Assembly: GCA_002337215.1 (NCBI GenBank)
Contig: DDFO01000005.1
Coordinates: 57,264 to 63,855, forward strand
DNA from: Phycisphaerales bacterium UBA1926
Lineage (GTDB): Bacteria > Planctomycetota > Phycisphaerae > Phycisphaerales > UBA1924
Length of the DNA stretch: 6,592 bases
Direction of reading: 5' to 3'
Every line of letters begins with the position of its first letter. Within the stretch, counting starts at the first letter, position 1. The position numbers were made by a program, and so were the translations under genes. This document shows, piece after piece, positions 1,986 to 6,592 of this stretch. The notes beneath the pieces are model-generated. The model did not search any database. It was not told the origin of the DNA and saw only the letters and a list, made by a program, of their open reading frames with translations.

Positions 1986-2738
1986 TCAGCGGGCTCCCGA
2001 CAGCCGATCCGCGATCGCGTGCGCCGTCGGGATGCTCGGCTCGCGGCGTACGAACGCGCGCAGATCGTCGAACGCGACCCAACGAACCGCGTCGTACTCC
2101 CATCGGCTCGTGCGGTTCTCCGCGTCGATGAGCGCGATGAGTTCTTCAACAGGCCGGCGCAGCGCGACGCGGACGATCAGCTCGACCGATTGTCCGACCG
2201 GATCGTGCAGCAGCGCGATCGGGGGTGTCGGATCGGGATCGACGGGAAGCCCGACCTCCTCGCGGATCTCGTTGATGAGGACGCGCCAGACGTCGTCGGC
2301 ATCCATCTCGGTCTGATCGACCGGGGGCGGATCGACGCCGCCCGAGGGGCCGAACTCCCACATCCCCCCGAACACACGCGTCGCATCGCTGCGGAGCCCG
2401 AGCAGCGCGTGCGGCGTTCCCGCCGCGTCCCGCGCCTCGAGAAGACCGGTCACGCCGAGTTGGACGACGCCCGTGCCGATCGCCGGTTGCACAGCGAGGT
2501 TCCTGTATTCCTCCCGCCCGGCGCGGACGAAGCCCCGCTCGGGATGGGCGCCGAGAAAGGCAAGAATCGGTCCGTTGAACGCACGCGGGTTCTCGGCGCG
2601 GATCCGATCCCAGGCGGCCTCGACGGACCTCGGGTCGACGCCGCTCGGCTGCGAGAACGATTCCAGCTCGATCCGCAGCGGGATGTCAGCGGGAAGGTCG
2701 TGCCAGACGCACCCCGTGCCCTCGTCCGCATCACTCAC
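1986..2738 (-). CDS. Nudix hydrolase with degenerate Nudix box and extra N-terminal domain
   Basis: A 250-residue protein starting at GTG (2738), whose first bases overlap the ybaB stop in the tetranucleotide GTGA, implying translational coupling. Nudix proteins hydrolyse nucleoside diphosphates linked to another group, using Mg2+. The Nudix region spans about residues 85-230: WEFGPSGGVDPP (127-138), then the catalytic helix NEIREEVGL (156-164) with E157, E160 and E161 as likely metal ligands, and a late YDAVRWVAFDDL strand (215-226). Against the consensus G-x5-E-x7-REUxEExGU the first Arg is Asn and the loop before the helix is expanded, so the upstream Gly and Glu do not fall at canonical spacing. 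The N-terminal part (about 20-80, with AAWDRIRAENPRAFNGP) resembles the leading module of eukaryotic NUDT22-type UDP-sugar hydrolases; this is recognition by eye, and the substrate remains unknown. It is convergent with the antiporter gene, 37 bp apart, with no obvious terminator between them. Confidence 0.8.
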   Translation of the reverse strand: MSDADEGTGCVWHDLPADIPLRIELESFSQPSGVDPRSVEAAWDRIRAENPRAFNGPILAFLGAHPERGFVRAGREEYRNLAVQPAIGTGVVQLGVTGLLEARDAAGTPHALLGLRSDATRVFGGMWEFGPSGGVDPPPVDQTEMDADDVWRVLINEIREEVGLPVDPDPTPPIALLHDPVGQSVELIVRVALRRPVEELIALIDAENRTSRWEYDAVRWVAFDDLRAFVRREPSIPTAHAIADRLSGAR

Positions 2739-3103
2739 GGCAGGAAGTTCTTCAGCCCGGGGATCATGTCCGAGAGCCCCATCTCCTGCGCCTCGGCCTC
2801 GACGATCGTCTGCGCCGCTTCACGGGCTTTCAGCAAGCCGTTGTTAACCGCCTCGGCCACGAGCGACTCGGCGAACTCCCGGCTCTCCTCGCTCGCGAAA
2901 CCCGCGCCGATCGCCGGGTCGATCGAGACGCGCAGCACCTTCGCGGTCCCGGTGACGGTTGCGCGCACGGCGCCGCCCCCAGCCGACCCCTCGACGCGGG
3001 TCGCCTCGAGCTTCGCACGCACGCGGTCGGACGCCGCTTTGACCTTGTCTTTGTCCTTGAGCAAACCCGCGATGGCGCCCATCGCCTTGAACTGATCGAG
3101 CAT
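2735..3103 (-). CDS. ybaB: YbaB/EbfC family nucleoid-associated protein
   Basis: A 122-residue member of the YbaB/EbfC family: small DNA-binding proteins that form tweezer-like dimers and coat the nucleoid. The N-terminal helix (MLDQFKAMGAIAGLL, then a Lys/Asp-rich run to about residue 35) leads into the hallmark segment EGSAGGGAVRATVTG (38-52) and the strand VLRVSIDPAIG (57-67). Long helices follow (about 73-107, SLVAEAVNNGLLKAREAAQ) with a short tail ending in IPGLKNFLP. It is slightly longer than the roughly 100-110 residues usual in the family. The ATG at 3103 is supported by an AGAGGA ribosome-binding sequence 9 bases upstream. It lies 33 bp after the dnaX tau stop, the common dnaX-ybaB order in bacteria, so cotranscription is likely. 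Its stop overlaps the GTG start of the Nudix gene. Confidence 0.93.
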   Translation of the reverse strand: MLDQFKAMGAIAGLLKDKDKVKAASDRVRAKLEATRVEGSAGGGAVRATVTGTAKVLRVSIDPAIGAGFASEESREFAESLVAEAVNNGLLKAREAAQTIVEAEAQEMGLSDMIPGLKNFLP

Positions 3104-3136: not shown

Positions 3137-3847
3137 CTAGCGGCGCTTCGGATGGATATGGGTGACCTTCGCCCCGAACACCTCCGCGGCCCGCTGCACG
3201 AGCGGGTGGCTGTCAGCCTCGCGCGGGTCGAACGCCGGGCTCTGATCGGAACCGAGTTCCGGACCGTCCGCGGGACCGGGTTCTGGACCGGTCTCCGGTT
3301 TGGTCTCTGGATTGGATGCCTGACGCGGCTGCTCCGACCCCGAGGTGGATTCGGGTCTGGGCTTCAGATCGACGAACTGGATCGACATCGACCGGGCGCC
3401 CGTCTCCTGCACGAGCCGAACGATCTCGGGGAGATGATCCCGCGCCATCGCCGAACGCGCCGCCGGCACACCGAGGCGGAGCAGCTTGGGGGAGGTCTGC
3501 TGCACGATCATCGAATCGAGCATCGCGCGCAGCCGAGGACCGGCGAGTTCGAGCACGCGAGGCCAGACCTCGTCGGGGTTCGGGGGGGTGGTGCCCGCCG
3601 GTTCACCGGCCGCCGCGTCGACCTCGGGCCGATCTGTTCCCTTGGGGTCAACAGCACGCTCGGGTGCTTGTTCGGTGACCCGCTCAACGGTGCGCGAACC
3701 GCTCTCTCGGTCGCGGTCGGACGCGGGGTGTGTCACCGGACCCCGCGCAGGCGGGGATGGCTTGGGAGTCGGTGCCTGGGCAGGGGGCGTTGTTGGTACA
3801 GGATCGGCCGAGGGTGCCCGGGACGCGGGCCCCGCGGCCGTCAGGCT
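3137..3847 (-). CDS. dnaX: DnaX tau-specific C-terminal region, reached by -1 frameshift from dnaX
   Basis: This frame is -1 relative to dnaX and open without a stop from the A7 run to TAG at 3137. Joined at the slip site it extends the ATPase by 236 residues, giving tau of about 615 residues (E. coli tau is 643). The segment starts with a Pro/Ala-rich linker (12 prolines in the first 37 residues), then a charged stretch. Next comes a helical domain (PDEVWPRVLELAGPRLRAML through QETGARSMSIQFVDL, tau about 470-540) of the type seen in DnaX C-termini. A second Pro/Glu-rich linker and a terminal HPLVQRAAEVFGAKVTHIHP motif follow, matching the usual DnaX tail. In other bacteria this region of tau binds the polymerase alpha subunit and DnaB. 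A separate gene starting at GTG 3736 is formally possible, but it would begin inside the linker with no ribosome-binding site. A homopolymer sequencing error is the main alternative to programmed shifting. Confidence 0.85.
   Translation of the reverse strand, partial: SLTAAGPASRAPSADPVPTTPPAQAPTPKPSPPARGPVTHPASDRDRESGSRTVERVTEQAPERAVDPKGTDRPEVDAAAGEPAGTTPPNPDEVWPRVLELAGPRLRAMLDSMIVQQTSPKLLRLGVPAARSAMARDHLPEIVRLVQETGARSMSIQFVDLKPRPESTSGSEQPRQASNPETKPETGPEPGPADGPELGSDQSPAFDPREADSHPLVQRAAEVFGAKVTHIHPKRR
3812..3833 (-). promoter_or_regulatory. Candidate frameshift-stimulating hairpin
   Basis: On the minus strand, GGGGCCCG (3833-3826) pairs with CGGGC-A-CCC (3820-3812): eight G-C pairs, one bulged A and a five-base loop. 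It starts 13 bases after the A7 run. A competing 5-bp hairpin (CGCGG/CCGCG, 3836-3824) begins 10 bases after the run. GC-rich sequence folds easily, so this is suggestive only. Confidence 0.4.
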
Positions 3848-4983
3848 TTTTTTCCGGGCGACCCCGTTGCGGACGAGCGGGCATCACGGCCCGCGACCAA
3901 CGCCGTCACATCCGCCAGTTTCTCGGTCATGGCGAGCCGGACGAGCAGCGCGTCGAAGAGCGCGCGAGGAGAACTCGACGACTTGACCGCCCGCTGCACG
4001 CTCTCGGTGAGCGCGATCATGTGCACCAGCCCCGCGGCGTCGAACCGCTGCGCGCGCTCGGCCTCGTCTTTCCGCGTCGCGCCGGTCAACTCGACAAGGT
4101 CCGTCTCCGGGCCGCACGCCGACATCACCATCAGGTCGCGGAACCGCTCGAGGAACGCCTCCATCACCTGGTCGGTCGAGGTCTTGTTGACAAGGACCGC
4201 GCCCTGCTCAAGCACCGTCTTCGGATCCCCGTCCGCGATCGCGTCGATCAACGACCCGATCACCTCGCGATCGGGCAGCCCCAGCAGCGATTCGAGCAGC
4301 GTCAGCGTGAGTTTCTTCTCACCCGCGGCGATCAAGCGATCGAGCAGGCTCAACGCGTCGCGCATCGACCCGTTGCCGAGCCTCGCGACCGCGGAGATCA
4401 GTTCCGCGTCGGCCTTGAGGCCCTCCTGCTTCACCACCGCCTCGAGGTGGTCCTCGATCTTGCCCGAGGGGATGTTCCGGAAGTCGAACCGCTGGCACCG
4501 GCTCTGGATCGTGGGGGGCACCTTGTGCGGCTCGGTCGTGCACAGGATGAATTTCACATGCTCGGGCGGCTCCTCCATGGTCTTCAGGAGCGCGTTGAAC
4601 GCCTCCTTGGTGAGCATGTGGACCTCGTCGATGATGTAGATCTTGTACTCGCCCCGCAGGGGGCGGTAGACGCTGCTCGCGATGACCTCGCGGGCCTCGT
4701 CCACGCCCCGGTTGCTCGCGCCGTCGATCTCGATCGTATCGGTGTCCTGACCCGTGAAGATCGCCTGGGCGATGTCTTCTTTGCCCTCGGGGTTGTTGAG
4801 CGCGTCGGCGAAGATCCGCGCCATCGAGGTCTTGCCGACCCCCCGCGTCCCGCTGAACAGGTAGGCGTGGGCGACCTTGTTCTGGTCGATCGCGGCCTTG
4901 AGCGTGCGCGCGATGGATTCCTGTCCGACGACCTCGTCGAACGAGCGGGAGCGGTACCGGCGGGCGAGAACGGTGTAGGCCAT
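3841..4983 (-). CDS. dnaX: DNA polymerase III gamma subunit (dnaX zero-frame product)
   Basis: Clamp-loader AAA+ ATPase that loads the beta clamp on DNA. From ATG 4983 the zero frame gives 380 residues opening with the conserved MAYTVLARRYRSRSFDEVVGQE; an in-frame GTG at 5022 would add 13 unconserved residues and overlap neuC, so ATG 4983 is preferred. Visible motifs: Walker A GTRGVGKT (45-52), EIDGASNRGVDE (85-96), Walker B IYIIDE (115-120), TMEEPPEHVKFILCTTEP (135-152) and the arginine-finger SRC motif SRCQRFDF (161-168). Domain III, the oligomerisation collar, runs from about 220 to 360 and ends near ALFDALLVRLAM. The protein stops right after domain III, as gamma does in Escherichia coli. 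The four-cysteine zinc module expected between Walker A and B is absent. The zero frame ends at a run of seven A, then GCC TGA; see the tau entry for the frameshifted product. No clear Shine-Dalgarno sequence precedes the start. Confidence 0.93.
   Translation of the reverse strand: MAYTVLARRYRSRSFDEVVGQESIARTLKAAIDQNKVAHAYLFSGTRGVGKTSMARIFADALNNPEGKEDIAQAIFTGQDTDTIEIDGASNRGVDEAREVIASSVYRPLRGEYKIYIIDEVHMLTKEAFNALLKTMEEPPEHVKFILCTTEPHKVPPTIQSRCQRFDFRNIPSGKIEDHLEAVVKQEGLKADAELISAVARLGNGSMRDALSLLDRLIAAGEKKLTLTLLESLLGLPDREVIGSLIDAIADGDPKTVLEQGAVLVNKTSTDQVMEAFLERFRDLMVMSACGPETDLVELTGATRKDEAERAQRFDAAGLVHMIALTESVQRAVKSSSSPRALFDALLVRLAMTEKLADVTALVAGRDARSSATGSPGKKA
3847..3853 (-). promoter_or_regulatory. 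dnaX slippery heptamer A_AAA_AAA for -1 frameshifting or transcriptional slippage
   Basis: The minus strand carries seven consecutive A placed exactly as X_XXY_YYZ in the dnaX zero frame (GGA AAA AAA GCC TGA). Both Lys codons can re-pair after a -1 slip, and the zero frame stops two codons later. E. coli dnaX uses A_AAA_AAG by ribosomal shifting, and Thermus dnaX uses a longer A run by transcriptional slippage; either mechanism could apply here. Upstream, ACGGGGTC is only a weak candidate for a stimulatory Shine-Dalgarno-like element. Confidence 0.8.
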
Positions 4984-5006: not shown

Positions 5007-6233
5007 ATGACGGATCACGCACGCATCTCGCCTCCCGACGCAGAGCCGGGCCGCCCCGGCAAGGGCCCGAGGCGGATCGCCGTGGTGACCACGGGGAGGG
5101 CCGATTACGGGCTTTTCATCCCGGTTCTTCGGGCTCTGGAGCGTCATCCGGGAACCACGCCGATTGTCTACGCGACCGGGGCGCACCTCTCCGAGCGCCA
5201 CGGGATGACCATCGACCGCGTCCGCGCCGACGGATGGGACCAGATCGAGACCGTCGAGACCGAGTTTACCCATGACCAGGACATGCCGTCGCGGATCGCC
5301 CGCGGGGTCGGGAGGTTTGGCGACGCGTTCTCATCTCGGCGCGGCCCGAACGCGCCGGACGTCGTCACCCTGCTGGGCGACCGATTCGAGACGCTCGCCG
5401 CCGCCGTCGCCGCGTCCGCGTCCGGGGTCCCCATCGCCCACATCCACGGCGGGGAGATCAGCACCGGCGCGCTCGATAACCAGTTCCGCTACGCGATCAC
5501 CGCGCTCGCCAACCTCCATTGCGTCGCGACCAAGCGGGCCCGCGACCGGCTCGTCGCGATGGGCGAAGCTCCCGAAACCGTGATCCAAACCGGTGCCCCT
5601 GGCCTCGATGGGATCGCGGAACAACAGCCGATGCCGCGTGAGGATTTCTGCCGCGAGGCAAGGCTCTCAGGCGACGGCCCGTTCCTGCTCGTCACCCTGC
5701 ACCCCGAGACGATCGGGGGATCCGACGCGACGCAGCAGGCGGGCGGGCTTGTGCGAGCGCTTGAGTCGGTCGGGATGCCGGTGCTCGCGACGGCCGCGAA
5801 CCAGGACCCCGCGGGGAACGCGATCAACGCCGTGATCGAGGACGCGTGCGCCCGGAACGGATGGGCCTTCTCGCGCGCGCTCGGCCCGCTCTATCACCAC
5901 GCGATGCACCATGCCGCGGCGATGGTGGGCAACTCATCGAGCGGGATCATCGAGGCCGCGAGTTTCGGGTTGCCCGTCGTCAATATCGGCGAGCGCCAGG
6001 GCGGGCGCGAGCGATCGGGGAATGTCGTCGATTGTGCGCACGACGCGGGCGCGATCGAACGCGCGATCCGCGACGCGCTCGCGATGGAATGCGCCGGGAT
6101 CGCGAACCGTTACGCCGCGCCGTCCGGAGCGAGCGCCGCCGACCGCATCGCCAACGCGATCGCGGCGATGCCGCTGGGCGCTGCGTCGATCCGCAAGGCT
6201 TTCGACCCGCCCGGGCTCGGCAAATCTGAGTGA
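5007..6233 (+). CDS. neuC: UDP-N-acetylglucosamine 2-epimerase (hydrolysing), NeuC/NnaA/LegG family
   Basis: Cytoplasmic enzyme predicted to convert UDP-GlcNAc to ManNAc plus UDP, the first step toward sialic-acid-like sugars; the related LegG acts on UDP-diacetylbacillosamine, so the exact substrate is open. From ATG 5007 it has 408 residues; GTG 4998 is an alternative adding three residues. Family motifs: TTGRADYGLFIPVLRAL (28-44), GDRFE (124-128), HIHGGEISTGALDNQFRYAI (146-165), LHPE (231-234), NSSSGIIEAASFGLPVVNIG (309-328) and ER (329-330). It has the two-lobed GT-B-like layout of the family. The first 22 residues are an unconserved Pro/Gly-rich leader, and start choice there is uncertain. 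The last 13 residues (RKAFDPPGLGKSE) and the stop are encoded by the first copy of the 150-bp repeat, so the native end was probably near residue 395. No neuB or neuA homologue is in the window, so pathway membership is inferred from family only. Confidence 0.9.
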   Translation: MTDHARISPPDAEPGRPGKGPRRIAVVTTGRADYGLFIPVLRALERHPGTTPIVYATGAHLSERHGMTIDRVRADGWDQIETVETEFTHDQDMPSRIARGVGRFGDAFSSRRGPNAPDVVTLLGDRFETLAAAVAASASGVPIAHIHGGEISTGALDNQFRYAITALANLHCVATKRARDRLVAMGEAPETVIQTGAPGLDGIAEQQPMPREDFCREARLSGDGPFLLVTLHPETIGGSDATQQAGGLVRALESVGMPVLATAANQDPAGNAINAVIEDACARNGWAFSRALGPLYHHAMHHAAAMVGNSSSGIIEAASFGLPVVNIGERQGGRERSGNVVDCAHDAGAIERAIRDALAMECAGIANRYAAPSGASAADRIANAIAAMPLGAASIRKAFDPPGLGKSE

Positions 6234-6256
6234 GTTCTCTGAAGAAACCATGGTTT

Positions 6257-6340
6257 GGTGCCATGGAGACACCGCGGAGCGGATTCTCCATGCCGAGAAC
6301 GGCTTAAACATGGAGAAGGCTGCGCCGTCTCCACGGCACC
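6257..6340. repeat. Nested inverted repeat of repeat copy 1
   Basis: Outer arms ggtgccatggagac (6257-6270) and gtctccacggcacc (6327-6340) are complementary over 14 positions with one A/C mismatch. Inner arms ttctccatg (6284-6292) and catggagaa (6309-6317) are perfect 9-bp complements. A small ccg-agaa-cgg stem caps the structure. As RNA this gives a long imperfect stem 24 bases downstream of the neuC stop, without a following U run. Confidence 0.8.
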
Positions 6341-6406
6341 CGGCAAGGCTTTCGACCCGCACGGGTTCGGGTAATCTGAGTGAGTTCTCTGAAGAAACCA
6401 TGGAGT

Positions 6407-6490
6407 GGTGCCATGGAGACACCGCGGAGCGGATTCTCCATGCCGAGAACGGCTTGAACATGGAGAAGGCTGCGCCGTCTCCATGGCACC
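6407..6490. repeat. Nested inverted repeat of repeat copy 2
   Basis: Outer arms ggtgccatggagac (6407-6420) and gtctccatggcacc (6477-6490) are a perfect 14-bp inverted repeat. Inner arms ttctccatg (6434-6442) and catggagaa (6459-6467) are a perfect 9-bp pair, with gcg/cgc and agc/gct pairs between the two stems. The tip is ccg-agaa-cgg (6443-6452). In copy 3 only the left arms (6557-6570, one change, and 6584-6592) lie inside the window. Confidence 0.9.
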
Positions 6491-6592
6491 CGGCAAGGCT
6501 TTCGACCCGCACGGGTTCGGGTAATCTGAGTGAGTTCTCTGAGGAAACCATGGATTGGTGCCATGGAGCCACCGCGGAGCGGATTCTCCATG

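Follow-up and report, generated by a model that had tools for sequence, protein, structure and literature searches.

A predicted -1 frameshift at an A7 heptamer would yield tau from dnaX in a family of Phycisphaerales

Results

The dnaX locus of Phycisphaerales bacterium UBA1926

The stretch of DNA analyzed here, referred to as the window, comprises 6,592 nucleotides at the end of contig DDFO01000005.1 (positions 57,264 to 63,855) of Phycisphaerales bacterium UBA1926, the genome of which is a 3.85 Mb draft in 64 contigs with an estimated completeness of 74%. Its dnaX gene is encoded on the minus strand, with a ybaB/ebfC-like gene downstream and a divergently oriented gene for a NeuC-like epimerase upstream (Table 1). 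The 0-frame ORF, which corresponds to gamma, reached 375.8 bits against TIGR02397 (dnaX_nterm, cut-off 250) and exceeded the cut-offs of PF13177, PF22608 and PF12169, indicating that domains I-III of an AAA+ clamp loader are present. The final codons of this ORF are GGA AAA AAA GCC TGA (3855-3841), while in the -1 frame an ORF extends from the A7 run to position 3137, exactly to the base as read in a preliminary description of this DNA. Joining 379 residues from the 0-frame to the 236 residues of the -1 frame gives a predicted product of 615 aa, and the product sizes of about 380 and 615 residues proposed in that description match this arithmetic.

Table 1. Features of the dnaX region in the window (coordinates refer to the window)
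Feature	Position	Strand	Details
Gamma (dnaX 0-frame ORF)	3841..4983	minus	ATG at 4983, TGA at 3843-3841, 380 aa
Slippery heptamer A_AAA_AAA in 0-frame register	3847..3853	minus	Sequence; A7 followed by GCC TGA
Tau-specific tail (-1 frame ORF)	3137..3847	minus	236 codons plus stop at 3139-3137
Predicted stimulatory hairpin	3802..3842	minus	-29.9 kcal/mol, z -3.0
SD-like GGGG, weak	3862..3865	minus	-12 to -9 relative to the heptamer
ybaB/ebfC-like gene	2735..3103	minus	PF02575, 55.8 bits; directly downstream, dnaX-ybaB order

The -1 frame had also been described as a recognizable C-terminal region of tau. A Pfam scan with the single tail sequence of the window gave no match and the similarity to NF011526 was weak (19.3 bits), so that a family profile was needed. 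When 25 tau tails that are read in the zero frame in other families of the order were combined into a profile (threshold E 1e-3), it matched the tail of the window in the -1 frame with an E-value of 4.5e-9, and neither of the remaining frames gave a match, in agreement with the earlier assignment. The outermost base pair of the predicted hairpin is located 5 nt after the heptamer in the fold and 7 nt after it according to a hairpin finder. Upstream of the heptamer, a strict GGAG motif is absent from the window.

Early termination of gamma at a conserved heptamer

A search for gamma in 163 family genomes gave a match at E 1e-60 in 153 and none in 10. From 140 of the matching genomes, 141 dnaX loci were read, two of which were cut by contig ends, leaving 139 loci in which the end of the gene could be read; eight matching genomes remained unread due to partial matches or contig ends. 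Gamma stops early in 131 of the 139 loci, and the frame runs on in eight. In every one of the 131 loci with a short gamma, an in-frame X_XXY_YYZ heptamer is located at the gamma terminus, compared to a background of 42 out of 2809 15-codon windows from the gamma bodies of the family that contain one. The heptamer is A_AAA_AAA in 113 loci (eight of them within A8), G_GGA_AAA in 16 and C_CCA_AAA in two, meaning that 18 sites are classical tandem-slip sites with a run of only four A. Five loci contain overlapping heptamer forms (GGGAAAAAAA in three and CCCAAAAAAA in two). Apart from the sites themselves, only nine runs of A7 or longer occur in 414,963 bases of family loci. The stop codon of gamma follows one codon after the heptamer in 114 of the 131 loci, directly in 13, after six codons in three and after seven codons in one. 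Five further genomes of the family, which were read later and are kept out of all other family counts, uniformly contain A_AAA_AAA in the same register, with the stop codon zero or one codon later. The comparison of close relatives across the A run that the preliminary description had called for thus yielded the same arrangement in nearly the whole family, and this conservation supports its main proposal, that gamma and tau are encoded by one dnaX through an A7 site in -1 register.

Some loci deviate from this pattern. In seven family loci tau stays in the 0-frame together with runs of A7 to A9. Two of them (L168 and L147 from genomes G106 and G107) have an A9 run in phase 0 with tau in the 0-frame and are surrounded by A7 genomes in the tree, an apparent return to the transcriptional type. 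In L109 of G137, a genome assembled into one contig with 86% completeness, A6 is found in place of A7 and the frame overruns tau into the next gene; this is possibly a homopolymer error, and possibly real. Three loci with G_GGA_AAA (L009, L094 and L101 from G008, G066 and G067) differ from most others in that the gamma stop lies six codons on. A broken dnaX in G002, from the same genus as the window, was considered as an insertion, which was ruled out because the interruption consists of N, marking a gap in the scaffold, and the sequences on its two sides are duplicates.

The -1 frame encodes a tau-like tail

The tau-tail profile matched the -1 frame in 115 of the 131 family loci, with 16 remaining below the threshold, and matched another frame in none of the 131. 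Among 33 overlapping pairs of tails, about half of them within a single cluster of closely related loci, 714, 490 and 1762 substitutions fell at codon positions 1, 2 and 3 of the -1 frame, a pattern that points to selection of the tail as protein-coding sequence in this frame. The tail is 63 to 254 codons long, with a median of 171 among the 125 loci in which its end is inside the locus. The tail lacks a regular start: 46 of the 131 loci have some start codon in the -1 frame no more than ten codons from the heptamer or the gamma stop, 85 have none, and the tail frame of the window has its first one 39 codons past the heptamer. In related genomes, a homologous tail is fused to gamma in frame 0.

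The separation of the two frames is also visible in protein databases, where a standard annotation had been predicted to split the gene into a short dnaX and an unnamed ORF. As anticipated, the best 120 of 7997 database relatives of gamma have lengths of 359-418 aa, and the tail has 11 relatives that are listed as proteins in their own right, 129-199 aa long; three of these carry the name 'hypothetical protein'. Catalog entries of this kind call for caution, since they present a short DnaX and an unnamed ORF where full-length tau is likely made.

dnaX loci outside the family

Searches in the larger order and class provided 67 loci outside the family, a part of which was picked for a short frame. 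Among these, 55 have A9 or A10 runs, ten have A7 in phase 2, one has G_GGA_AAA and one has no site. Tau is found in the zero, -1 or +1 frame, so both polarities exist outside the family, although the polarity counts are biased by the choice of some loci for a short frame. An organism label, taken from the record title, was available for the best 80 of at least 591 matched stretches. Five loci among these best 80 (L221-L224 and L227), labeled Phycisphaerales (two), Phycisphaeraceae, Planctomycetota and Planctomycetaceae, combine an early gamma stop with a phase-2 run of A7 or A8. In the same set, dnaX of other Planctomycetota, for example Aporhodopirellula and Gemmata, has A9 or A10 with tau in frame 0, and no such run or site was found in 39 of the best 80. 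Reversed polarity is also seen outside Planctomycetota, in the dnaX of a Clostridia MAG (L294): its A9 run is in phase 2, gamma terminates 13 nt downstream of the first base of the heptamer, and about 108 codons of the -1 frame are open. The ORFs of a rumen bacterium (L250) and an Omnitrophota MAG (L274) are short as well (421 and 325 aa), and no run or heptamer was found in these two loci.

Register and flanking elements

The A run lies in phase 2, the sole phase in which A7 yields A_AAA_AAA, in all 113 family sites with A7 or A8 and in all 11 other A7 sites, whereas 60 A9/A10 sites are distributed over phases 1, 0 and 2 (32, 12 and 16, respectively). The flanking sequences differ as well. 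GGAG, GAGG or AGGA is present at -15 to -7 in 84 of the 131 family loci, while 47 loci, including the window, lack these motifs. With the range narrowed to -14 to -8, such a motif accompanies 67 of 113 A7 sites and 13 of 18 non-A7 sites, compared to two of 60 A9/A10 sites. Over the 40 nt upstream of the heptamer, GGAG occurs 87 times versus 39 times in shuffled sequences, with 74 of the 87 occurrences falling within -14 to -11. Neither GAGG (34 versus 38 in shuffles) nor GGAGG (17 versus 15) shows an overall enrichment upstream of the heptamer.

The 50 nt downstream fold with a mean z of -2.10 at A7 sites and -2.23 at non-A7 sites, but -0.14 at A9/A10 sites. Within the family, the downstream mean z of about -2.1 to -2.3 contrasts with 0.2 to -0.4 at control offsets. 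In one set of controls, five usable offsets gave -0.1 to -0.4, while the mean at offset +27 was spoiled by a row with near-zero variance. At least five of the six positions +8 to +13 are paired in 85% of cases versus 58% when only the 3' part was shuffled, and several types of base pairs occur at each of these positions, whereas the corresponding values at A9/A10 sites are 20% and 30%. The hairpin finder detected a hairpin in all of 129 loci, and 87 of these have a stem that begins at +7 or +8; as this tool was used without a control, more weight is put on the shuffled controls. Stimulators are weaker at the 11 A7 sites from outside the main group, three of which have an SD-like motif, and the mean z there is -1.29.

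Since family and class loci are related by descent, these counts are not independent. On a tree with 109 rows, the fewest changes required were 11 for the site class and 13 for the polarity, and within the family six for GGGAAAA and two for CCCAAAA, but these are rough numbers because good support is limited to 30 of the 106 inner branches. The two site classes could be compared in five independent, well-supported pairs, in about 3.3 of which the A7-type site goes with the hairpin and in about 1.9 with the SD-like motif; with five pairs, the association cannot reach significance, but its direction is consistent.

Lysine codons and tRNAs

The A-site codon of the heptamer is AAA in all 131 family sites and never AAG, although AAG is the predominant lysine codon in the gamma bodies of the family (1579 of 1921, versus 342 AAA). 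A search with an anticodon-arm pattern in 12 genomes found a match with the CTT anticodon in 11. ARAGORN confirmed both tRNA-Lys (ctt) and tRNA-Lys (ttt) in the genome of the window, in two further family genomes (G102 and G176) and in two genomes from outside (G320 and G337); in the remaining pattern-searched genomes, one or none of the two tRNAs was checked with this program. G320 and G337 have A9/A10 sites, hence the presence of tRNA-Lys(CUU) cannot be the sole factor deciding the mechanism.

Discussion

Recoding of dnaX is a classical case of alternative decoding, with ribosomal frameshifting in E. coli and transcriptional slippage in Thermus. In both organisms, tau is the 0-frame product and recoding generates gamma. 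The preliminary description suggested that the same recoding operates in Phycisphaerales bacterium UBA1926. Our analysis supports the recoding of gamma and tau as such, yet the polarity is reversed, and it is tau that recoding would produce. We regard it as very probable that gamma terminates at 380 codons and that -1 ribosomal frameshifting at A_AAA_AAA yields a predicted tau of 615 aa. Translation in the 0-frame would end after 380 codons, making gamma the default product. A ribosome slipping by -1 on A_AAA_AAA would instead fuse gamma to the tail of 236 residues, resulting in tau. The downstream hairpin likely stimulates the shift, and the upstream Shine-Dalgarno-like stretch perhaps contributes. 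Both frames, their register, the conservation of the heptamer and of the -1 tail, and the flanking elements are directly seen across the family; from these we infer that ribosomes do slip, with a frequency likewise to be inferred, and that both proteins would take part in the clamp loader.

Whether the ribosome or RNA polymerase slips had been left open, and the comparison of the loci now favors the ribosome. The main competing explanation is transcriptional slippage of the Thermus type on the A7 run, by which mRNAs with varied numbers of A would be formed, some of them with tau in frame. It draws on the class relatives with A9/A10 runs at the same place, which look like cases of transcriptional slippage, and on the available text of Antonov et al., 2013 (PMC3711429), where the slippage argument was extended to two-ORF dnaX genes with A7-A9. 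Transcriptional slippage goes along with homopolymers of about eight to nine or more in any register, whereas the sites considered here are A7 and exclusively in phase 2, at variance with the A9/A10 runs that occur in all phases. Moreover, 18 of the 131 sites have just four A after GGG or CCC, and the SD-like motif and the hairpin accompany A7-type but not A9/A10 sites. In the window itself, an X_XXY_YYZ heptamer in 0-frame register is followed by a structure a few nucleotides downstream, as is typical of -1 frameshift sites. An SD-like stimulator upstream, which bacterial sites often have but do not require, is represented in the window by GGGG only. The non-homopolymer heptamers, the fixed register, the GGAG-like motif and the hairpin together favor -1 ribosomal frameshifting as judged from sequence comparison, which makes transcriptional slippage as the principal mechanism unlikely, although A7 may permit some transcriptional slippage too. 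For the A9/A10 sites outside the family, transcriptional slippage is the likely mechanism.

Other explanations dispense with recoding altogether. Gene callers give the tail its own ORF, and with a start codon near the heptamer or gamma stop in 46 loci, gamma and an independently initiated tail could be two proteins, produced by re-initiation or coupling, with no fused tau. We consider this very improbable, since a nearby start codon in the tail frame is missing in the other 85 loci and first appears after 39 codons in the window, the conserved tandem-slip heptamer and its stimulators would be left unexplained, and in related genomes gamma and the homologous tail form a single ORF in frame 0. 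Still less credible is a loss of tau, with a decaying tail and gamma alone in use: the wide spread of tail lengths would fit such a decay, but the tail profile is retained in 115 of the 131 loci and substitutions are found mainly at third positions of the tail's own frame. We assign the lowest probability, close to nil, to an assembly or sequencing indel that obscures a single in-frame tau gene. The incomplete draft state of the window's genome, the error-prone nature of homopolymers and the one-contig genome G137, in which A6 leads to a frame missing tau, would speak for such an error. However, a stop within zero to seven codons of the heptamer is common to the 131 family loci, among them those of the one- or two-contig genomes G109, G117, G121 and G176, and the heptamers other than A7 hold the same register. 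In addition, a 100% identical protein of 380 aa (P0012) is encoded on three contigs, the longest with 122,535 bases compared to 63,855 bases for the contig of the window, and a 99% identical protein of 380 aa (P0013) on seven contigs. Gamma therefore ends at the same residue on other contigs, bearing in mind that these assemblies may share reads. Taken together, the 131 family loci and the near-identical proteins elsewhere mean that an indel error does not explain the early stop.

Compared to E. coli dnaX with its A_AAA_AAG heptamer, the predicted -1 ribosomal frameshifting in the family shares the tandem slip at the end of gamma, the downstream hairpin, the encoding of gamma and tau in one gene and, in 84 of 131 loci, an SD-like motif at a distance similar to that in E. 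coli. It differs in that gamma is the 0-frame product and tau the shifted one (in 131 of 139 family loci), in the strict use of AAA as A-site codon, in the occurrence of G_GGA_AAA and C_CCA_AAA at some sites and in the presence of a second tRNA-Lys(CUU). Thermus thermophilus dnaX, with A9, has an A run at the end of gamma and the same pair of products, and it is resembled by the A9/A10 relatives in the class. In contrast, the run in the family is shortened, either to A7 or to four A preceded by GGG or CCC, and it stands in a fixed register and is flanked by RNA stimulators.

Reversed polarity of dnaX has been known since 2013, and a ribosomal case with reversed polarity has already been suggested. 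The available text of Antonov et al., 2013 (PMC3711429) reports 17 dnaX genes from 12 genera that depend on recoding for tau, with nine A10 runs and one each of A9, A8 and A7, and argues for transcriptional realignment at the shorter runs, too. These two-ORF genes are similar to the locus described here in the requirement of recoding for tau and in the zero-frame gamma stop just after the site, while in the present case a whole family with a fixed register, alternative heptamers and stimulators points to the ribosome. Atkins et al., 2016 (PMC5009743) list Chlorobium phaeobacteroides as a candidate in the section available to us; its site is A7 and, according to unpublished data of these authors, has stimulators similar to those of E. 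coli dnaX. In the open-access literature we found no paper on reversed ribosomal dnaX recoding in these Planctomycetota; a search on dnaX frameshifting and transcriptional slippage in Planctomycetota retrieved only Antonov et al., 2013, and one on dnaX frameshifting in Phycisphaerae and related names none. What our comparison adds is the family-wide scale, the alternative heptamers and the apparent replacement of a transcriptional by a ribosomal mechanism within one class.

The efficiency of frameshifting at these heptamers deserves consideration. A_AAA_AAA is described as less shifty than A_AAA_AAG in E. coli (Atkins et al., 2016; PMC5009743, as far as the accessible section goes), and G_GGA_AAA was inefficient in one instance and among the more efficient E. 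coli heptamers elsewhere in the accessible parts of Sharma et al., 2014 (PMC4066793). Efficient shifting at such sites would need the stimulators or the local tRNAs. A dedicated AAG-reading tRNA was suggested in the accessible section of Atkins et al. (PMC5009743) as a possible reason why Thermus uses slippage of RNA polymerase. A dedicated tRNA-Lys(CUU) would grip AAG too tightly for slipping, which could account for AAA in the A-site, and tRNA-Lys may thus set the A-site codon rather than the mechanism. Both tRNAs, the avoidance of AAG and an indicated ribosomal slip coincide in the family. This interpretation is testable, and the idea that ribosomal shifting of dnaX at AAG is disfavored by the possession of two lysine tRNAs (PMC5009743, same section) becomes directly accessible to experiments.

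With regard to the evolution of dnaX recoding, we lean towards a scenario in which the class repeatedly swapped transcriptional slippage at A9/A10 for ribosomal frameshifting at A7 and subsequently at G_GGA_AAA or C_CCA_AAA. The default subunit would have flipped, tau would have become dependent on frameshifting in nearly the whole family, and tRNA-Lys(CUU) would hold the A-site codon at AAA. Tau is the organizer of the replisome, and its supply in a large family of bacteria would, if this is true, depend on the behavior of the ribosome. The class would also constitute a natural experiment in the evolution of recoding, with the same gene, the same place and the same products, but two mechanisms and overlapping intermediate sites.

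A repeat at the contig end

Apart from dnaX, the window contains a 150-bp unit that is repeated 2.7 times at positions 6193-6592, next to the contig end, and includes an imperfect palindrome (fold z -6.8). A query of 393 bases from this region found 52 matches in the same genome, many of them about 86 bases long, and some matches are on both strands at one place. The repeat is a dispersed REP- or MITE-like element.
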